Shown here one piece after another: positions 54,495-64,000 of a stretch of 64,000 nt of DNA. Source of the stretch: Microlunatus panaciterrae (GTDB lineage: Bacteria > Actinomycetota > Actinomycetes > Propionibacteriales > Propionibacteriaceae); the NCBI RefSeq assembly GCF_016907535.1, contig NZ_JAFBCF010000001.1, positions 3,968,001 through 4,032,000 of the forward strand, read 5' to 3'. Position numbers and translations under genes: made by a program. The notes under the pieces were generated by a model, which was given only the letters and a program-made list of their open reading frames with translations, did not search any database and was not told the DNA's origin. Every line of letters starts with the position of its first letter. Position 1 is the stretch's first letter.

Positions 54495-57083
54495 ATGGAC
54501 GCTACTGCGGACCTTGCGCTGGTTGGCCTGACCACGAAGGAAGCGGCACGGCGCCTGGCGACGGAGGGGCCCAACGAGCTGCCCACGGAGAAGCCACGCA
54601 ACCTCCTGCAGCAGGCCTGGCAGGTGCTGCGCCAACCGATGCTGATGCTGCTCGCCGTCGCCGGAACGGTCAACTTCCTGCTCGCCGAGCCGTTGGACGG
54701 GATCGTCCTGATCTCCTTCGTGGTGGTGGTGATCGGCATCTCCATCTACCAGGAGCACAAGACCGAAGGTGCGCTGGCCGCCCTGCGCGATCTGTCCGCA
54801 CCACGTGCCCTGGTGATCCGCGACGGCGTGCAAATGCGCATCGCTGGCCGCGACCTGGTGCGCGGTGACTGGGTGGTGCTGGCCGAGGGCGACCGGGTCC
54901 CGGCCGATGGGGTGCTGGTCGAGAGCGTCAACTTCGCGGTGGACGAGTCTGCCTTGACCGGCGAGTCGGTCCCGGTTCGCAAGGCGTCGATCGACGCCGG
55001 CTCGCTCTCCGCTGCGATGGGCCCGCCGGGAGGTGATGCGACCCCGTGGGTGTACTCGGGCACGCTGGTGGTCAAGGGCCGAGGACTGACGCTGGTGAAG
55101 GGGACCGGGGCCAGCACCGAGCTGGGCCGGATCGGCACGGCACTGAGCACCATCGAGGTCGAGCGCACACCCCTGCAGCGGGAGATCGACCGGCTGGTGC
55201 GCTTCATCGCGGTGCTGGGTCTGGCCGCAGCCGCGCTGGTGGTGCTGGTCTACCGACTGACGCGCGGGGCCTGGCTCGAGGGCCTCCTCGCCGGAATCGC
55301 GACGGCCATGGCCATGGTGCCGGAGGAGTTCCCGGTCGTCCTCACCGTGTTCCTGGCGCTCGGCGCTTGGCGCATGTCGCAGAAGCATGTGCTGACGCGG
55401 CGGTCAGCGGTGATCGAGACACTCGGGTCGGCCACGGTGATCTGTGTCGACAAGACCGGCACACTGACGATGAACAGCATGACGGTCGCGGACCTCATCG
55501 TTGGCGAGGAGGTCTTCACGCTCGACGCGCAGCCCCTTCCCGAGGCGTTCCACACGATCGCCGAGTTCTCCGTCCTCGCCTCGCCGATCGACCCGTTCGA
55601 CCCGATGGACAAGGCCTTCACCGTCCTGGGCGAGCGCTATCTCCAACAGACCGAGCACCTGCACGCCGACTGGGAGCTGGTGCGCGAGTACGCGCTCTCG
55701 GAGAACATGCTGGCTCTCTCGCATGTCTGGCGATCCCCCACCAACAGCCACTACGTCGTCGCCGCCAAGGGGGCTCCGGAGGCCATCGCCGCCCTGTGTC
55801 ATCTCGGGCCCGAAGAGCTCGCCTCGCTCACGGCCCAGGTCGAGAGGGCGACAGCCAGCGGCCAGCGCGTGCTGGCCGTCGCCCGGGCCTTGGTCGACCA
55901 GGATGAGGACCTGCCCACCGAACAACAGGGTTTCGACTTCGAGTATCTCGGGCTGGCCGGTCTACTCGACCCCGTACGCCCAGGGGTGGCGCACGCTGTG
56001 GCCGAGTGTGCCAGCGCCGGGGTGCGTACGGTCATGATCACCGGTGACTATCCGGGCACGGCGATGGCGATCGCTCGTGAGGTCGGCCTGGACCATGGCG
56101 CCGGCTACATCACCGGTCCAGAGCTCCAGGTCATCGACGACGACGAGCTTGCCAGCCGAGTTCGTTCGGTGAGCGTCTTCGCGCGGATGGTCCCCGGGCA
56201 GAAGCTGCGGCTGATCCGCGCGCTCAAGGCCAATGGCGAGGTGGTCGGGATGACGGGCGACGGCGTCAACGATGCACCCGCCTTGCGTGCCGCCGACATC
56301 GGGATGGCGATGGGGGCACGGGGTACCGATGTGGCACGGGAGGCGGCCGCCCTCGTGATCACCGACGACGACTTCGCCTCGATCGCCGCCGGTGTGCGCC
56401 AGGGACGTGGCATCTTCGACAACCTGCGTAAGGCGATGTCCTACATCATTGCTGTGCACGTGCCGATCGTGGGCATGTCACTGGTGCCGATCTTCGTCGG
56501 CGACTGGCCGCTGGTGCTGCTACCGGCGCAGATCGCCTTTCTCGAGCTGATCATCGACCCTGCCTGCTCTGTGGTGTTCGAGGCGGAAGAGTTCGACCCG
56601 GCGATCATGGACCAGCAGCCGCGAGGGCTCGAAGAGCCGATGTTCCGCCGCAGAGTGCTCATTCTGGCCGTGCTGCAAGGACTTTCGATGCTCGCTGCCG
56701 TGCTGGCTGTCTTTCTGTGGACCGTGCTGACGGGGCGTCCCGACACCGTCGTGCGTTCGATCACCTTCGCCACGCTCGTGATCGGGAACTTGGCTCTGAT
56801 TCTGGTGAACCGCTCCTGGCGACTGTCGATCTGGCGCACGTTCCGGGAGCGACGCAATGGCACGCTCAAGTGGATCCTGACAGCGACCCTGCTACTGCTG
56901 ATCGTCGTACTGAGCGTTCCTTGGCTCCGGGAGGCCTTCAACCTCGGCCCGGTACGGGCCGTCGACTGGCTCCTCGCTCTGCTCGCAGGGGTCGCTGGCG
57001 TGGTGTGGTTCGAGATCTACAAGATCACGGGGCGCGCCCGCAAGACCGTGAGAACACCCAACCGCCGCTTCCAAGACCCCTAG
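54495..57083 (+). CDS. Cation-translocating P-type ATPase (calcium-pump-like, P2 type)
   Basis: The 862-residue pump has an N-terminal cation-ATPase domain (LTTKEAARRLATEGPNELP), the actuator TGES at about 155-158, PEEFPVVLTVFLALG in M4 (about residue 275), the phosphorylation site DKTGT at D319 and the hinge GDGVNDAPALRAADIGMAMG near 586. About ten membrane helices are visible and no heavy-metal-binding domain. The layout is that of bacterial Ca2+/Mg2+-type pumps; the ion is not certain. ATG 54495 has GGAGGGGG upstream; a longer frame begins at 54408. It is convergent with the 1192-residue gene, the two stops sharing CTAG. Confidence 0.9.
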   Translation: MDATADLALVGLTTKEAARRLATEGPNELPTEKPRNLLQQAWQVLRQPMLMLLAVAGTVNFLLAEPLDGIVLISFVVVVIGISIYQEHKTEGALAALRDLSAPRALVIRDGVQMRIAGRDLVRGDWVVLAEGDRVPADGVLVESVNFAVDESALTGESVPVRKASIDAGSLSAAMGPPGGDATPWVYSGTLVVKGRGLTLVKGTGASTELGRIGTALSTIEVERTPLQREIDRLVRFIAVLGLAAAALVVLVYRLTRGAWLEGLLAGIATAMAMVPEEFPVVLTVFLALGAWRMSQKHVLTRRSAVIETLGSATVICVDKTGTLTMNSMTVADLIVGEEVFTLDAQPLPEAFHTIAEFSVLASPIDPFDPMDKAFTVLGERYLQQTEHLHADWELVREYALSENMLALSHVWRSPTNSHYVVAAKGAPEAIAALCHLGPEELASLTAQVERATASGQRVLAVARALVDQDEDLPTEQQGFDFEYLGLAGLLDPVRPGVAHAVAECASAGVRTVMITGDYPGTAMAIAREVGLDHGAGYITGPELQVIDDDELASRVRSVSVFARMVPGQKLRLIRALKANGEVVGMTGDGVNDAPALRAADIGMAMGARGTDVAREAAALVITDDDFASIAAGVRQGRGIFDNLRKAMSYIIAVHVPIVGMSLVPIFVGDWPLVLLPAQIAFLELIIDPACSVVFEAEEFDPAIMDQQPRGLEEPMFRRRVLILAVLQGLSMLAAVLAVFLWTVLTGRPDTVVRSITFATLVIGNLALILVNRSWRLSIWRTFRERRNGTLKWILTATLLLLIVVLSVPWLREAFNLGPVRAVDWLLALLAGVAGVVWFEIYKITGRARKTVRTPNRRFQDP

Positions 57084-60000
57084 ACACGAGTCAGATCGAC
57101 GGTCTCCACAAAGACCGTCCGCTCGCGCAGCTCGCTCGGTCCTGGGTCATGGCCCGCAACGCTCTCGATACGCTCGACTTCGCGGCAGTACAGGCGCAGC
57201 GGGCCCGGTCCGGGGGGCAGCAGGATCGGCGGAGTCGTGGTGCCGGCGTCGACACTGACCAACGTTCCCGGGACGGGACGCCAGACGGGCAGGTCACTCG
57301 GGACATCATCGGCCACGGCGACCAGGTCGGCTCCGGCTTGAGCACCGTTCGTGCCTCGCTCGACCAGGACGTCGAACCGGTTCGCTGGCCTCGGCTGGAC
57401 ACCATCCAGCCGAAGCCGCACCGTTGCACCGTCGCGGTCGACCACCAGTGTCCGATCCGGCCACAACTTGATCTTGTCGCTGATCACGACAGAGGACAGT
57501 TCCAGGCCGGGCAGGCTGTGTGGTTGGAAGCGCGCCAATGCCAGTTGCACGAACGGCGCGTATGAGGTGAACGCCGGCGGTGGCGCCACGCGGATATCCA
57601 CGAACCAGTGCTCGGGTCCCTTCACCGGTGTGAAGCCGATGACCTGTCCAGAAGCTGGCGGTTCCCCCACCGCGAGGTGCGCCACTGGGAAGCCGGCCGG
57701 AAACCAGTCCGCCGTCGGTAAGCCGGGGATGTTCGGCGTGGCGAAGATCGGATCGCGCCCGCTCCGGCTGACTGCAGCACGTGTCGCCGGATCGGCACCC
57801 GTCTCGGCGAGGATCACCGCCAACTGCTCACCGTCGCCGGTCACGAACCAGGGCCTGGCGAGCTCCACCCGCAGCGTCGAGCTGTGCCTGGTGCGGACCA
57901 GACTGCCGCCGGAAGCCGACCGCTCCCAGCGGAAGGCCGGAAGCACTGAGATCACCACCGGCGCGGGCGGCCGGGCGGTGGACAGGATGGTGACCTCCGG
58001 CTGCTCGGCTGATCGCTGGAAGGCCTGATCGGGCTCGTCGCTGCGAAAGTAGGGCCGGAACCGCGAGATGGCGGTGAGCGTGTACTTCACCCGACGATGC
58101 GCGGTGTCACCGAACTCATGCCGGAACGACAATGGCACCGGTTCCCCCTTCCCGATCGCCGTGCTGTGCAGCTCCACCACTGATCGAGGCTGCGGCCGAT
58201 CATCGGTGACGTCGGTCCAGGCCGCCGACACCACCAGCCTGCCCGTGCTGTCCGTGTCCAGCCCACTCGGCAGGAACGAAGGGGTGAGCAGAGCGTGCGG
58301 TTCGCCGGCGTTCTGGTGCAGCGCGGAGTCGGGCAGCTGCCAGCGCGGCTCCGCCAGCGGCTTGCGCACCGCGTGCACCACCTCGATGCGGCGGACCGGC
58401 GTCACCATGGGGTGCCGCCCGAGCCGGACGTTGACCTCGTCGGTCCGAGCGCCCGCAGCGTCCGTGGTCGTCGGCAGCCAGTCCCGGATCATCAGATGAT
58501 CAAGGAAGCCGTCGCGGACGGTGGATGACAGCTCGATGCTGGCCTTCTCCGCCTGGGCGAGCCGGATCTGAAGACGGTTGCCATTCCAGGCCATGCTGAT
58601 CCGCTCGGTCGGATCGGTGCTGGCGGCCAGCTCGATGATCTTGTGGTCTGGGGTGTAGTCCGGCCACTGTGCGGCGACCGGCCAGGCGGTGGCGTCTTCG
58701 ATCGGTGCGGTCAGCCCACCCGGTGCCGCCGGCAGGAACGCCCGAATGCCGTCGGTCACTGGATCCGGCAGCCCGGTCGCCTCGCGGTCGTCACTCACCC
58801 CTGGAGCCAGGGCGCGACGTGCCAGCTCCCAGGATCGCTCGTCGGTCTCGGAGTCGAGCAAGCCGTGCTGCTCGATCAACGCCAGCGAGGCCGTTGGTGG
58901 GCGAAGACTCCGCAGGTCCCGGATCGGCAGGGTCGGATCGATCACCGACAGTTCCTCGACCGACATGTGCAGGTCGCTACGGATCACCAGCCGGTCGACG
59001 GTACTGCCGGGTGCGAACACATCGGTCTCGTCGGCCACGATCACCGGCGGCTGGATCGGGTCGTGGCGACGGTAGATGATCGCTCGGGTGGCCCGCGCGT
59101 CGCCGCTGATCTCGTCCAACGACCGGCCGCCGCCGGTGACGTCTGCGACGCGCATCCGCAACTGGTAGGTGGTGCTGAACCGCAGCCGCGGCAGCCGGCC
59201 CCGTGGCGCCCGGAACCTGAAGTCGAAGTCGAACGGCAGCTCCGTGCCGGGATGGCGGAGCGAGCCTGGTGTTGTCCCGGCCGGGTTCGGGGCGGGCAGA
59301 GCCAGGCTCCAGCCGTTCCAACGGGCGACCACCTCGTCCGCCTGCAGGACCCCATCGTCGCCCTTCAGAGCGGCGTACGCCTGCAGGTGACCCTCCTCGC
59401 GCCGCCAGCGTCGCCTGTCCTGCCCAGCGTCCCTGTCCTGCCCAGCGTCCCTGTCCTGCCCATCGTCCCTGTCCTGCCCATCGTGCCTGTCCTGTCCGGC
59501 CTCGGGTGGGCCGATGGGCAAGCCGTCGACCAGATACGAGGCCTCACGTTCGCAGAGCGAGCGCCAGGGACCGACACCGCTGCGGATGTCCACCCGGTAG
59601 CCGAGCAGCAGATCCTCAGCGAAGAGCTCTGCACCCTCCATGCTGGACCGGGCGGAACCGCTGGCGCCTGCAGCCGACCGAGCGGAAAAGTCGGCCGCCC
59701 GACCGGGCCGGACCAACTGCAGCCCACCTGAGCGCAAGGCCGGCAGGACCACCGGAGCCGCATCGGGCGCAGCGTCGGTGAGGCGGAGTGCCGCCTCGCG
59801 CAGACCCTGGACCGCGCCGTCCACGTCGAACGTCGCCAGTGCCCAGGCCGGCGCGGGGCCAGGAGCCTCGCCAGGAGCATGGCCCCGGATCCGGTCCGTG
59901 CCCGTCAGGTCCAGCATCCCGGCCCGCAGGGCCGGCGTGGACGTCGTCGATCGGCTGCCGGGCCAGAAGCCGGCTGACAGGTCGTAGCACGTCCAGCCCG

Positions 60001-60658
60001 AGGTCACCGTCAGCGGCGCATCTGCGGTGCTCACCCGAAGGAAGCGTGGGCGGTCGGCGTCACCCAGGTCGAGGTCGCTCCGTTCCGCGGCGAGCCAGAA
60101 GACCAGGCCCAGGTCCTCCAGCACGGTGGGATGCTCGCGCAGCAGGGCAACCGTCTGGTGGAAATCGAGCCTGGGCGGCGGGGGAGGAGCGGGACGTCGT
60201 GGCTGCGGCGAGGCCGAGGGCGAGGTGACCCAAGCCGGGAGGTGCGGCTCGGCGACCTTCGCGGGGTCGAGGGTGGGATCGCGGGCGAGGGTGCGAGCAG
60301 CGGACTGGTAGCTCCCGGTCACGGTGTCGGCCGGTCCAAAAGTGGGCGCCACCGTCGGCGCAGGCTGGGTCTTGGGCTGGAAGTCATCGATGACGCCGGC
60401 GTCGCCATCGAAGAAGGCGTGCCAGACTTCGCTGCGCGCCCGGGGCAGGTACACCGGCGGGGTCACCGCTGCCGCCGTGCCGGCGCTGGTCCGGATTCGC
60501 AGCTCGAAGCTCGACTCGGCCAGGACAGATGGCCAGTCGCGCAGGCCGAAGTCGGCGACGGTGCCGACCGAGAGCCTCGGGACGACCAGCACCCGGATCC
60601 TCACTGTGTCGATGCCGAGCAGGCCGTTCGGCACCGCGACGAAAAGCAGCTCGCTCAA
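57080..60658 (-). CDS. Large (1192-residue) protein of unknown function, last gene of the beta-propeller operon
   Basis: I do not recognise a domain with known function. The protein has no signal peptide and no membrane segment, so it is probably cytosolic. It starts MSELLFVAVPNGLLGIDTVR, has a Pro-rich linker (PAPPPPPRLDF, about 154-165) and an 18-bp tandem repeat encoding GQDRDA-like units (about 386-416). Beta-rich sections follow, with conserved-looking blocks HEFGDTAHRRVKYTLTAISR (about 845-865) and LARPWFVTGDGEQLAVILAE (about 925-945). I vaguely recall similar blocks in large hypothetical proteins near phage-tail-like clusters, but cannot verify this. The ATG overlaps the stop of the beta-propeller gene upstream (ATGA). 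Confidence 0.85.
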   Translation of the reverse strand: MSELLFVAVPNGLLGIDTVRIRVLVVPRLSVGTVADFGLRDWPSVLAESSFELRIRTSAGTAAAVTPPVYLPRARSEVWHAFFDGDAGVIDDFQPKTQPAPTVAPTFGPADTVTGSYQSAARTLARDPTLDPAKVAEPHLPAWVTSPSASPQPRRPAPPPPPRLDFHQTVALLREHPTVLEDLGLVFWLAAERSDLDLGDADRPRFLRVSTADAPLTVTSGWTCYDLSAGFWPGSRSTTSTPALRAGMLDLTGTDRIRGHAPGEAPGPAPAWALATFDVDGAVQGLREAALRLTDAAPDAAPVVLPALRSGGLQLVRPGRAADFSARSAAGASGSARSSMEGAELFAEDLLLGYRVDIRSGVGPWRSLCEREASYLVDGLPIGPPEAGQDRHDGQDRDDGQDRDAGQDRDAGQDRRRWRREEGHLQAYAALKGDDGVLQADEVVARWNGWSLALPAPNPAGTTPGSLRHPGTELPFDFDFRFRAPRGRLPRLRFSTTYQLRMRVADVTGGGRSLDEISGDARATRAIIYRRHDPIQPPVIVADETDVFAPGSTVDRLVIRSDLHMSVEELSVIDPTLPIRDLRSLRPPTASLALIEQHGLLDSETDERSWELARRALAPGVSDDREATGLPDPVTDGIRAFLPAAPGGLTAPIEDATAWPVAAQWPDYTPDHKIIELAASTDPTERISMAWNGNRLQIRLAQAEKASIELSSTVRDGFLDHLMIRDWLPTTTDAAGARTDEVNVRLGRHPMVTPVRRIEVVHAVRKPLAEPRWQLPDSALHQNAGEPHALLTPSFLPSGLDTDSTGRLVVSAAWTDVTDDRPQPRSVVELHSTAIGKGEPVPLSFRHEFGDTAHRRVKYTLTAISRFRPYFRSDEPDQAFQRSAEQPEVTILSTARPPAPVVISVLPAFRWERSASGGSLVRTRHSSTLRVELARPWFVTGDGEQLAVILAETGADPATRAAVSRSGRDPIFATPNIPGLPTADWFPAGFPVAHLAVGEPPASGQVIGFTPVKGPEHWFVDIRVAPPPAFTSYAPFVQLALARFQPHSLPGLELSSVVISDKIKLWPDRTLVVDRDGATVRLRLDGVQPRPANRFDVLVERGTNGAQAGADLVAVADDVPSDLPVWRPVPGTLVSVDAGTTTPPILLPPGPGPLRLYCREVERIESVAGHDPGPSELRERTVFVETVDLTRV
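59406..59503. repeat. 18-bp tandem repeat (about five units) inside the 1192-residue gene
   Basis: Units of CTGTCCTGCCCAGCGTCC (plus strand) repeat about five times with few changes. In the minus-strand gene they encode GQDRDAGQDRDD-like hexapeptides, so copy number changes would keep the frame. Confidence 0.85.
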
Positions 60659-62838
60659 CCGACTCTCCCTGGGTAGATGCGGATGGTGCCGTCTGTGCCG
60701 GTGATGGCCAGCAGCGTGCCGTCCGGCGAGTACGCGACGTCGCGGACGCCCCCGGGATGGATCACCCGACGTCGTTCGCGACCGGTGCGCGGATCGAAGA
60801 TGATCACGGCCGGCCCCTCGGTGACCACGGCGAGAAGCGCCTCGGCCGGGTGGAACGTAAGCGCGGTCACCGGCGCTGTCATGCGAAGTTCCCGGATGAG
60901 GACGGCTGCTCCCGGTTGCAGGGCGTAGAGGCGCACTCGCGAGCCGGCTGCGATGGCGAGGAACGCCCCGTCGCTGCTGAAGGCTAGTGCGGTCACTGGA
61001 CCGCCTTGGGTCAGTGGGTCGGCTGTGGTCGCGGTGTCGGCATCGGCCAGGGTGACGGAGCTGTCGGCGTAGCCGATAGCGAGCAGGACGCTGCCGGGCG
61101 CGAAGCTGAGTGCTCGCACCTGGGCTTGCCGGTCGACGCGGCGCAGCTCGACGCCATCGTTCGCGTTCAGCACGCGGACCACATTGTCTGTGCAGGCGGT
61201 CGCGACCAGCCGCTCGTCACTGCTGATCGCGACCAGGGTGACCGATCGAGGATGACGGGACTGCCAGCGCTCGACGCCGGCCGGAAGATCGATCCGGCGA
61301 GCCGTCTTGTCCTGGCTGGCTGTGGCCAGCCAGGTCCTGGTGCTCGGACCGATCGCAAAGCCGCGAACCGCATCACCGTGGTTGACCAGGCCACGCTGCT
61401 CGCCGGACGACGTCAGTAGGATCCGAACAGCGCCGTTGCTGTCCGCGACCGCGAGCGTCTCGGCGCCAGCGCCGAAGCCGAGCCATCGCGGTGTGCCGGG
61501 GTGCAGGTGCTGCGCCCATTGCCGGGTCCCCGTCCTGGCGTCGAAAAGAGCGAGGTTCTCCTGCTCGCCACCCGCCGATGACCGATCAGCGAGTGCCCTT
61601 GGGGCAGGCTCCCCGATCACGGCAACGAGGCCGCTACCTGCCGCAGTGTTCTGGATGGCCATCCGCGTCACCCGTACCCCGAACGACACAGTGGCTCGCA
61701 AGGTCTCGACGTCGCGTACGCGGACGAAACCCGCGCCGCCGACCGCGATCTGGCAGCCATCTGGTGAGAACGCCAGGTCAGTGATCTCATCCGTCTCCTG
61801 CTGGGCACCCAGGCCGGAGTCGGCGTCAAAGACGCTGAAGCCGACGGCATCGGGGGGCGCATCAGTGAACAGCCCGTTGGCAGCGATCAGCCGTCCATCC
61901 GGGCTGAAGTCGATTCTCAGACGTAACGACAGGCTCGGCAATGGACGTGGCGGGAAGACCGGGTGGCCGTCGTCAGTGTCGAAGACACCGAGCCTCAGGT
62001 CGCCCAACGGGGGGAACCGCCCGGCGTACCGGACCGCCACCCGGCTGCCATCGGGGCTGAAAGCGACGGGTGCGAAGGCGTTGCGGAAGCCGTGGAAGAA
62101 CTGCTCGAGCGGATCGAGGGGAACCCGTACCGCACCCGGCAGGGGGACCTCGGCAGCCGTCGTGGGTGGGTGCAGTGGGAGTCGAGCGACTCGGGCGTCG
62201 CGGCGTAGGGCGACGATCTCGCCGCCGCCGGGGCGCAGAGTCGCCTGCACGATGCCGGGTGAGGCCAGCGAGGCTCGAGACTCTCCGGTGGCACAGTCGA
62301 CGAGCCGGAGCACGCCATCGGCATAGACCAGCAGCCGTTGGGAGTCTGCGCTGAACACCGGGCGGAAGCGGAGATGGGACGTCTGGCCCAGGTCACGTAG
62401 CCGTTGTCCGGTGGTCGCGGACAGCAGAATCACCTCGCCGGGCGGCTCCATGCCGCGGACGACGGCGATCAGGCCACTGTCCGGGCTGACCGCGATCTCG
62501 TAGGCCGACAGACCAGACACCTGCCAGACCTGCGCCCCGCTGTCGGCCCGCAACAGCCGCACCGTGCGGTTCTCCACTGTGAGACCGTCCGGTCCGGTGG
62601 GGAGGGACTCGGAGCCGACCACCAGGTGCCTGTCGTCCGAGGTGAACTGAAGGGCGGTCGGACCGGGCAGGTCCACCATCCAGCGCGGCCGCCCGCTGCC
62701 GGCATCCAGCACCACGACGCCGCCCGCCGCATCCGAGCTGGTGCCTGCTGCCGCGAGCCAGAGCCCGTCGGCGCTGTAGGCCACCCGGCTCACGGTGAAC
62801 GGCAGTTCGGCCGAGCAGATCAGACGTCCCAGGCTCAT
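60655..62838 (-). CDS. WD40-like beta-propeller protein (paralogue 2)
   Basis: The 727-residue protein is built of about 40-residue propeller blades throughout, with recurring FSPDGRLIAANG, SPDGSRVAVRYAG, WLATASQDKTARRIDL and ISSDERLVATACTDNVVRVL. It should form two seven-bladed propellers, i.e. a protein-binding scaffold. No signal peptide, membrane segment, kinase, NACHT or protease domain is fused to it. Its C-terminal 380 residues align block by block with the neighbouring upstream gene, including the endings YPGRV and YPTRV. Both ends overlap neighbours by ATGA. Confidence 0.88.
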   Translation of the reverse strand: MSLGRLICSAELPFTVSRVAYSADGLWLAAAGTSSDAAGGVVVLDAGSGRPRWMVDLPGPTALQFTSDDRHLVVGSESLPTGPDGLTVENRTVRLLRADSGAQVWQVSGLSAYEIAVSPDSGLIAVVRGMEPPGEVILLSATTGQRLRDLGQTSHLRFRPVFSADSQRLLVYADGVLRLVDCATGESRASLASPGIVQATLRPGGGEIVALRRDARVARLPLHPPTTAAEVPLPGAVRVPLDPLEQFFHGFRNAFAPVAFSPDGSRVAVRYAGRFPPLGDLRLGVFDTDDGHPVFPPRPLPSLSLRLRIDFSPDGRLIAANGLFTDAPPDAVGFSVFDADSGLGAQQETDEITDLAFSPDGCQIAVGGAGFVRVRDVETLRATVSFGVRVTRMAIQNTAAGSGLVAVIGEPAPRALADRSSAGGEQENLALFDARTGTRQWAQHLHPGTPRWLGFGAGAETLAVADSNGAVRILLTSSGEQRGLVNHGDAVRGFAIGPSTRTWLATASQDKTARRIDLPAGVERWQSRHPRSVTLVAISSDERLVATACTDNVVRVLNANDGVELRRVDRQAQVRALSFAPGSVLLAIGYADSSVTLADADTATTADPLTQGGPVTALAFSSDGAFLAIAAGSRVRLYALQPGAAVLIRELRMTAPVTALTFHPAEALLAVVTEGPAVIIFDPRTGRERRRVIHPGGVRDVAYSPDGTLLAITGTDGTIRIYPGRVG

Positions 62839-64000
62839 GGCCGGCCGCCCTGATCCGAGACACGGGTCGGGTAGACACGGGCAGCGCCGTCCTCGCAGGC
62901 GGTGGCGAGCAGCCGGCCGTCACCGCTGAACGCCACGTGGCGGACACCGGCCGGATGCACCAGCCGGTACGTCTCGATCCCGGCGTCGACATCGAAGACG
63001 TGCACCGTACGGCCCTCCGACCGCACGGCCAGCGTCCCATCCGCGGAGGAGAACGCCAGTTGCTCCACCGGCGTGCGGAAGACCAGCGTCCGCACCAGGG
63101 CCGGCTCGGCGGCGCTCAGAGCCGTCAGGCGGACGCGGCAGTCGGCCCCGCCGCTGGCAAGCAGGGACCCGTCGGCGCTGAGCGCGACAGCGTTCACCGC
63201 GCGGGGGTGGGTGACCTGGGCGGCCACCTGCCCCGTTGCTGCGTCGACGACCGTTGCCGTGCCGTCCTGGCTGGCTACAGCGAGAAGGCTCCCGGTCAGG
63301 TCGAAGCACAGCGCAACGATCTTCGCATCGTGGTCGAGCCTGAACCGCTCGGCGCCTGTCGCCGCGTCGAGGATCCTGGTCGCGCGGTCGGCGCAACCGG
63401 TCGCCACGAACTGGTCGTCAGCACTGATCGCGACCTGGGTGACTGACTGGGGGTGACGGTGTTGCCAGCGCTCGGTTCCCCCGTCCATGGCCAGCAGCCG
63501 AGCTGTCCTGTCCGCGCTGGCCGTCGCCAGCCACTGGCCGGTGGCCGGGCTGATGGCGACGTCCCTGATCGCATCCTGGTGGTTGACCAACCACAGCTTG
63601 CGACCGGACACCGTCTCGTAGAGCCAGACGCCGCCGCTGCTGCCGGCGGTGGCGAACGTCTGACCCGACGGTGTGAACCCGATCCAGCTGAGCGCCCCGG
63701 GATGGGTCTTCTCCAGCAGCAGCTCGCCAGATCGAACACTGAAGATCGAGGCCACCGGCGAGCTGCCGATCGCCCCGACCAGGCCGATCCCGCCGGTCAC
63801 CGTGACTCTGCTGACCGGGGAGCCGATGAGGACCTGGGTCGGTTCGGTGCCGAGACGGTGCAGCCGGACGAAGCCATTCCCGACGACGACCAGCCGGTCC
63901 CCGCGGGCGGTGAAGCCGACGTCGATGACCTTGGCGTCCGGTCGCTGCCAGACCACCGCCCCCGTACCCGCCTCCAGCACCGTCACCCCGACGCCGTCCT
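62835..64000 (-). CDS. WD40-like beta-propeller protein (paralogue 1), cut by the right window edge
   Basis: The frame is open to base 64000, and the codons above the GTG at 63986 continue a propeller blade (DGVGVTVLEAGTGAVVW), so the gene almost certainly starts outside the window. The 388 visible codons hold about nine blades (AISPATGQWLATASADRTAR, AISADDQFVATGCADRATRI, ALSADGSLLASGGADCRVRL, FSGDGRLLATACEDGAARVY). It is the upstream member of a tandem paralogous pair and is translationally coupled to the next gene (ATGA). Confidence 0.85.
   Translation of the reverse strand, partial: DGVGVTVLEAGTGAVVWQRPDAKVIDVGFTARGDRLVVVGNGFVRLHRLGTEPTQVLIGSPVSRVTVTGGIGLVGAIGSSPVASIFSVRSGELLLEKTHPGALSWIGFTPSGQTFATAGSSGGVWLYETVSGRKLWLVNHQDAIRDVAISPATGQWLATASADRTARLLAMDGGTERWQHRHPQSVTQVAISADDQFVATGCADRATRILDAATGAERFRLDHDAKIVALCFDLTGSLLAVASQDGTATVVDAATGQVAAQVTHPRAVNAVALSADGSLLASGGADCRVRLTALSAAEPALVRTLVFRTPVEQLAFSSADGTLAVRSEGRTVHVFDVDAGIETYRLVHPAGVRHVAFSGDGRLLATACEDGAARVYPTRVSDQGGRP

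Follow-up and report, generated by a model that had tools for sequence, protein, structure and literature searches.

The window analyzed here is a 64,000-nucleotide stretch of the single-contig, 4.07 Mb genome of Microlunatus panaciterrae (NZ_JAFBCF010000001.1, bases 3968001-4032000). Its right edge cuts an operon of six co-directional minus-strand genes which, when the open reading frames (ORFs) are read beyond the edge, follow the order A-B-C-D-E-F: a predicted metzincin, a HEAT-repeat protein, the protein C, two WD40 proteins, and the protein F (Table 1). C, B, A, and the rest of D lie beyond the edge, on the same strand. The subject of this analysis is the pair formed by C and F, which we regard, with hardly any reservation, as a real conserved two-gene unit, and which in this genome is split by the propeller genes D and E.

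The last four genes overlap by 4 bp at each of their three junctions (GTGA at C/D, ATGA at D/E, and TTGA at E/F), an arrangement that, to judge from the sequence, fits translational coupling; spacers of 18 and 11 bp separate A from B and B from C. An earlier, sequence-only reading of the window had described an uncharacterised operon of three minus-strand genes joined by ATGA overlaps. F, E, and the cut D are all open, and the description as an uncharacterised, apparently coupled operon holds; the ATGA overlap applies to D/E, whereas F starts with TTG and C/D is joined by GTGA. The GC content of the operon (69.2%) is close to that of the window (68.6%), and there is thus no compositional sign of recent transfer. 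An empty site was not found in six congeners, in which the flanking P-type ATPase had no match at E <= 1e-100.

Proteins D and E match the Pfam WD40 family with E-values of 1.9e-35 (in-window part of D) and 1.5e-34 (E protein). Their alignment scores 905, against a mean of -68 (standard deviation 25) for 100 shuffles, so that, on their sequences, they are certainly paralogues, as had been claimed. The likeness had been placed in the C-terminal 380 residues; it is present there, but runs over the full length, with 258 identities in 685 aligned positions. The gene A product is a predicted metzincin metalloprotease: its motif HEVGHYLGLDH fits HExxHxxGxxH, and it matches Peptidase_M10 of Pfam with 29.8 bits, for a cut-off of 24. 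B was found in one of 394 genomes of the class, namely the window genome itself.

The evidence for the pair comes from a set of loci collected with a profile built on the C-terminal domain of the C protein. Among the genomes of 84,980 species, this profile retrieved 167 relatives in a pattern scan; the best 80 were used, and as a consequence of this cap, close relatives of the query are over-represented among them. These 80 and 35 further loci, from other genomes and plasmids and including the window, make up the 115 loci (designated by L numbers; L118 duplicates L161) to which the counts of order and spacing, the search for relatives of A, B, D, and E, and the protease motif counts refer; the later plasmid loci L176-L185 stand outside these counts. 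In 114 of the 115 loci, the two genes share a strand and C precedes F; L038 has neither. No more than 97 bp separate their matched parts in 111 loci. The exceptions in spacing are the window (4,270 bp, with D and E between), L037 (728 bp), and L121 (949 bp between matched parts, with the annotated genes 15 bp apart). The window genome therefore keeps strand and order but has D and E between the two genes, which in the 113 others lie within 949 bp of each other. Where both genes were called complete (65 pairs), no gap exceeds 99 bp, and 60 of the gaps are of 34 bp or less.

In addition, the C and F trees agree: over 92 pairs, the patristic distances correlate with r = 0.91 (maximum of 500 permutations, 0.17), and 54 supported splits are common to both trees, out of 71 for C and 66 for F. 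C proteins of 1800 aa or more, F proteins of 2000 aa or more, and loci without both genes longer than 800 aa were excluded from this set. Homologues in so many genomes place the protein-coding nature of F beyond doubt. A search for a conserved third gene around the 80 loci gave only recurrent neighbours that are confined to Achromobacter or to Streptomyces, or that belong to common families, ABC transporters and LysR regulators among them. Gene calls in these neighbourhoods come from a simple script, and statements about flanking genes are approximate.

Table 1. Features of the split C-F operon and of genes discussed with it. Plain coordinates are window positions; an L002 position plus 52000 gives the window position.
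Feature	Coordinates	Strand	Product	Remarks
A	L002:16770-17417	-	215 aa, predicted metzincin	TTG start
B	L002:15738-16751	-	337 aa, HEAT repeats	
C	L002:12946-15726	-	926 aa, unknown protein	
D, full gene	L002:10835-12949	-	704 aa	end = window position 64949
D, in-window part	62835..63998	-	WD40 beta-propeller	ORF and Pfam
E	60655..62838	-	727-aa WD40 beta-propeller, paralogue of D	ORF and Pfam; between C and F
F	57080..60658	-	1192 aa	ORF; TTG start; second half of the C-F pair
Family J	L163:4580-5617; L165:14782-16497; L034:14245-15198		300 aa	directly after F; at least two copies in L165
Divergent genes	L002:17581 to L003:2560	+	zinc-ribbon protein, 338 aa; HerA/FtsK-like ATPase, 1080 aa; unknown protein, 287 aa	

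In a phmmer search at E <= 1e-4, none of A, B, D, and E had a relative in the 114 other loci (up to about 25 kb searched in each, in some 3-6 kb only), and the window is the only instance in the sample of a C-F version split by propellers. The conserved unit is thus C plus F, not propeller plus F, and the propellers are a local addition. The sequence-only reading had taken F for the partner of a propeller scaffold, which these results do not support: the constant neighbour of F is C, which that reading did not have in view, and F homologues occur without propellers, none having been found in the 114 other loci, which is the kind of finding that it had itself named as a refutation. Its proposal of a candidate undescribed system stands, for another reason: the core is C-F.

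Within the family, F is carried by 5 of 57 genomes, the window genome included. At five other loci of the family (two in one genome; 20 kb read around each), a C homologue directly precedes F each time, and no propellers were found. With the window genome counted each time, C was found in 6 of 196 genomes of the order, 13 of 394 of the class, and 9 of 296 of the phylum (one of these nine matches is weak and, on closer reading, without C). The presence of C-F is patchy within genus, family, and order. Among 72,556 plasmid records searched by tblastn with one F and one C, F was found in 10 and C in 20, and 9 of these 20 are typed as conjugative. C had no match in 50,697 phage records (tblastn), and of nine pattern matches to the window F in viral contigs, none is a relative.

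Isolates of Actinomycetota and of Pseudomonadota carry C-F, as do plasmids. Groups known in the locus set from metagenome-assembled genomes (MAGs) only (Bacteroidota, Chlorobiota, Holophagaceae, Oscillospiraceae, and Myxococcales) may include mis-binned contigs, and two loci (L074 and L100) fall inside proteobacterial branches of the tree; the claim is for this reason restricted to the two phyla. C ranges from about 900 to 3,300 residues and F from about 1,200 to 1,900, with C reaching 2,277-3,311 aa on rhizobial and Ruegeria plasmids. In two Rhizobium plasmids, C is followed by a gene (annotated as 2,128 and 2,569 aa) that falls below the profile threshold and is taken as F by position only. 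A conjugative plasmid of Agrobacterium vitis (L180:8854-25806) carries a 3039-aa C and an F annotated as two overlapping pieces, followed by dpdE on the same strand.

In nearly all the annotation viewed, C and F are recorded as "hypothetical". On the megaplasmid of Cupriavidus metallidurans CH34, a C family member at 1316743-1320900 is followed by F; the tag Rmet_4688 was assigned to it by coordinates only. In the available portions of two papers, Rmet_4688 is given as 'hyp' (PMC7019866) and, in a figure legend, as drawn beside rsqA (PMC10304878); those portions state no function for it. At this locus (L122), C-F lies just 3' of genes that, by position, are rpoQ-rsqA of the gold-induced gig region (L122:2333-3645), and phmmer at E <= 1e-4 retrieved nothing related to the WD40 proteins D and E.

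In some lineages, genes for hydrolases accompany the pair. A six-frame motif scan of the 115 loci (2.12 Mb) retrieved the strict trypsin-like pair (T[AG][AG]HC plus GDSGxP) in six ORFs from five distinct loci (L102, L106, L115, L118 = L161, and L169), all six on the strand of F and 259-306 bp after its matched part. These loci are four of the ten Streptomyces/Streptoalloteichus loci among the best 80 (one of the ten ends inside F), together with L169, from a different family of the same class. The strict metzincin motif was found twice, in gene A of the window (1.1 kb before C, with B between) and just after F in L164, where the protein also has a helix-turn-helix domain. All eight ORFs with either motif (seven distinct) thus lie just after F or head the window operon. 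A single subtilase motif lies 2.6 kb beyond F (L083), the control motif GxSxGG occurs twice, 0.8 and 1.9 kb before C, and the M23 motif is found in none of the 115 loci; the two trypsin-like proteins scanned (L118 and L102) had no Pfam match. As far as motifs can tell, the scan shows proteases beside C-F to be a repeated option and not a requirement: most loci are without motif proteases, so that the pair does not depend on having a protease as partner. The scan raised our confidence in a mechanism of scaffold plus protease.

Other neighbours of this kind were noted. On a Ruegeria plasmid, genes for phospholipase C and an M35 peptidase lie near the pair; on Rhizobium plasmids, a subtilase gene is divergent from C and a patatin gene follows F; and upstream of the pair in L166 there is a gene with a weak likeness to M15 that falls short of the cut-off (E = 0.0028). 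The L163 operon reads C-F-J-unknown-ATP-grasp-trypsin-like, the last assigned by eye. Three members of family J (that of L163 and two of L165) had no Pfam match, and a hemopexin-repeat protein is encoded about 1 kb beyond J in L034. Two related proteins with a peptidoglycan-binding domain are encoded about 4 and 3 kb from C-F (L162:17254-18753 and L164:179-1300; PG_binding_1 of Pfam, E = 3.8e-6 and 0.0078, respectively).

Family searches placed neither protein of the pair. The window F matched nothing in Pfam, NCBIfam, PADLOC, or PHROGs, in line with the earlier statement that the 1192-residue protein is without a recognised domain; more generally, C and F members had no convincing match in these four libraries, and none to a PHROGs family. 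Over 30 C members, 26 Pfam families appeared by scattered single or triple matches (the best, with E = 1.4e-5, joins a single member to a transthyretin-like model); 30 F members gave five families, all weak. NCBIfam gave two single weak matches for C and none for F. The F profile had no match to PDB sequences up to E = 10; the C profile had 169, and the 60 listed are almost all to its helical middle, the best being a designed coiled coil (E = 0.0011). Compared with each other by hhalign, C and F come out as unrelated (probability 0.3%).

An AlphaFold2 model of F, built from the window F and 29 homologues, has a mean pLDDT of 78.3 and a pTM of 0.62. In Foldseek, it retrieved strings of fibronectin type III (FnIII) domains (insulin receptor, contactin, and gp130) and macroglobulin-type chains (C4 and alpha-2-macroglobulin) with good E-values and TM-scores of about 0.1. 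F is accordingly predicted to be a series of beta sandwiches of the FnIII/macroglobulin type, a statement about local fold that goes no further. Its strongly conserved positions are mostly P, R, W, G, and D, and no catalytic pattern was recognised among them. A short tandem repeat of a GQDR-type hexapeptide (window:59410-59510, minus strand) falls within a low-confidence loop of the model. For C, a Streptomyces homologue was modeled (residues 61-1237; pLDDT 72.0, pTM 0.52): the N-terminal half is beta-rich, the middle helical, and the conserved C-terminus formed of long antiparallel strands. Foldseek searches of the PDB and of a viral library gave C weak matches only, of porin-like, lipid-transfer-like, and tail-protein kinds, with nothing convincing in the viral library, and the model suggests no convincing known fold.

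The C-terminal region of C is the starting point for one alternative, in which C-F would be a particle binding lipids or other hydrophobes, apolipoprotein-like or porin-like, or a duct spanning the envelope, with C as cavity or barrel and F as stalk. In the model, this region has seven long consecutive strands, in which polar and apolar residues alternate (read by eye); the first and third Foldseek matches are microsomal triglyceride transfer protein and lipovitellin, and most others of the 50 listed are porins. Two plasmid records of one Rhizobium species label the C relative 'apolipoprotein A1/A4/E domain-containing', and phospholipase or patatin genes lie near two plasmid copies. However, the TM-scores are 0.05-0.11, the lipid-transfer matches have Foldseek probabilities of 0.09-0.15, and a long stretch of coiled coil seen in other members is missing from the window C. 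C also differs from porins and lipid-transfer proteins in that, by hydropathy, 72 of 74 C proteins are without a signal-like N-terminus (2 of 74 have one), and in that the pair occurs in Gram-positives, which have no outer membrane. We consider this the least likely of the explanations weighed here.

F was also compared with alpha-2-macroglobulin. It is predicted to be a long string of beta sandwiches, complement C4 and bacterial alpha-2-macroglobulin are among its top Foldseek matches, and proteases lie beside some pairs. However, the match to the Salmonella protein has an E-value of 6e-6 but a TM-score of 0.08, the thioester motif C[GLV]EQ is found in none of 92 F proteins, and none of 67 has a signal-like N-terminus. 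Some bacterial alpha-2-macroglobulins are without the thioester motif, and its absence alone is not decisive.

The neighbours of the pair also bear on a second alternative, that C-F has a metabolic or envelope role (storage, secondary metabolism, or assembly) and that a single operon acquired its propeller, HEAT, and metzincin genes by chance. Of the 115 loci, just one has A, B, D, or E, and a ferritin-like gene lies near two Streptomyces loci, one of which also has an ATP-grasp gene; these ferritin-like proteins (PF12902; L163:13866-15002 and L185:19073-20149, the genus of L163 being inferred from a genus label that it shares with the genome of L161) are 56% identical. However, the propeller genes are inserted between C and F and all three junctions overlap by 4 bp, which implies selected co-expression; rarity and plasmid carriage fit a housekeeping role poorly; and proteases adjoin the pair in other lineages too. 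This explanation comes first among the alternatives, and we hold it to be doubtful.

A third alternative, that C-F is an anti-phage or anti-plasmid defence system of which the window operon is a regulated, protease-effector version, draws on patchy distribution, plasmid carriage, and the neighbours of plasmid copies. Defence-like genes (dpdE, SIR2, a type IIG-like methylase, and an Ago-associated restriction endonuclease domain) lie near four of the seven annotated Rhizobiaceae plasmid loci, and PADLOC matched five of nine chosen neighbours. In addition, the available portion of a study of bacterial conflict systems describes combinations of propellers, HEAT repeats, and effectors (eLife 2020 e52696, PMC7159879). 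The likeness lies in the mixing of modules, the large proteins of unknown fold, and the uneven distribution; that portion does not mention C and F. The propeller component of the MoxR-vWA/beta-propeller systems is present here (D and E), but no MoxR AAA+, vWA, STAND, or FtsH appears in the Pfam results for nine genes, namely A-F and the three divergent genes, with the best 25 of 40 and 41 families considered for D and E. A PADLOC scan of the window operon took in A, B, C, D, F, and the HerA-like neighbour: D matches the model HEAT-ARM_XIII (E = 4e-13), and A, B, C, and F have no match at E <= 0.1. Moreover, no nuclease or NTPase was recognised in the pair, and most chromosomal loci lie, by eye, among metabolic-looking genes. 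A defence system seems unlikely to us, less so than the lipid-binding particle.

The sequence-only reading had suggested that defining genes, such as phage-tail-like, ATPase, or protease genes, could lie to the right, and genes for a metzincin and a HerA-like ATPase were indeed found there, along with C and B; no contractile injection or phage-tail gene was recognised, either by eye in the ORFs to the right or by Pfam in the nine genes. The ATPase matches ser_rich_anae_1 of NCBIfam (E = 6e-44), mads_8 (about 1e-12), and HerA (about 1e-11), and the zinc-ribbon protein beside it has a likely membrane segment. Relatives of the ATPase are present in three of six congeners (one weak, E = 2.5e-5), none of which has C, and a congener with two C-F pairs (G041) has no match to it; on these occurrences, the ATPase is probably unrelated to C-F. 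Farther right (L003:2989-13916, read by eye), sugar ABC-transporter genes lie between the genes for two large proteins of 858 and 853 aa, which resemble paralogues and look glycosidase-like. Beyond them (L003:15259-20000, by eye) come a kinase-like protein whose N-terminus contains repeats, a GTPase-like protein with a P-loop, and another large protein, a set reminiscent of GTPase-centred conflict systems.

The explanation that we prefer is that C-F is a scaffold working with exchangeable proteases and that, in this genome, the propellers and the HEAT protein are its recognition layer; we give it a probability of roughly 0.37, that is, somewhat better than one in three. C and F would form one large, mainly structural complex, with F as a rod of FnIII-like sandwiches and C as an end piece carrying the conserved beta-sheet domain. 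Exchangeable hydrolases, for the most part proteases, may be carried or positioned by this complex or may process it. In the variant found here, the double-propeller proteins D and E and the HEAT protein would be a recognition or adaptor layer bound to the C-F frame and kept in fixed proportion through translational coupling, and the metzincin would be the catalytic output. The likeliest setting would be biological conflict, either defence or an attack directed at proteins or envelopes, which is the weakest step, and our confidence in any particular target is lower than in the mechanism of scaffold plus protease.

Several points weigh against this explanation. The motif scan was done after the trypsin-like genes beside F had been noticed, 107 of the 115 loci are without both the trypsin-like and the metzincin motif, and inspection by eye shows no hydrolase gene running in the same direction next to C-F in the majority of the 80 loci. 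Four of the five distinct trypsin-like loci are from Streptomyces/Streptoalloteichus, which leaves few independent cases, and the other hydrolases near the pair were counted without a background comparison. Few C and no F proteins look signal-like, whereas the trypsin-like neighbours look secreted by eye, and the compartments may differ. Foldseek gives low TM-scores throughout (0.05-0.13, depending on the query). Only this genome combines C-F with A, B, D, and E, so that the association of WD40, HEAT, and metzincin is one case, and the defence-like neighbours may reflect accessory plasmid islands only. Even so, we rank the scaffold with exchangeable proteases as most likely, followed by the metabolic role with chance additions, the defence system, and the lipid-binding particle.

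A more comprehensive proposal is that C-F is the core of an undescribed modular machine, a giant two-subunit beta scaffold, widespread and in part disseminated by plasmids, to which lineage-specific proteases are attached, and that the window holds a sensor-actuator device made by inserting propellers and placing metzincin and HEAT protein in front. Taken as a whole, this would be unlikely. No description of the pair was found in the open-licence PMC literature with indirect search terms. On the basis of the family libraries searched and open-licence papers, the C-F pair appears to be new, with proteins outside those libraries and no full agreement with any known system compared. It is a co-inherited pair of giant proteins, present in isolates of at least two phyla and on conjugative plasmids and without a convincing family model in those libraries, and naming it makes its function directly testable. 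The split version loaded with propellers and the adjoining proteases elsewhere provide a handle on what the pair binds.

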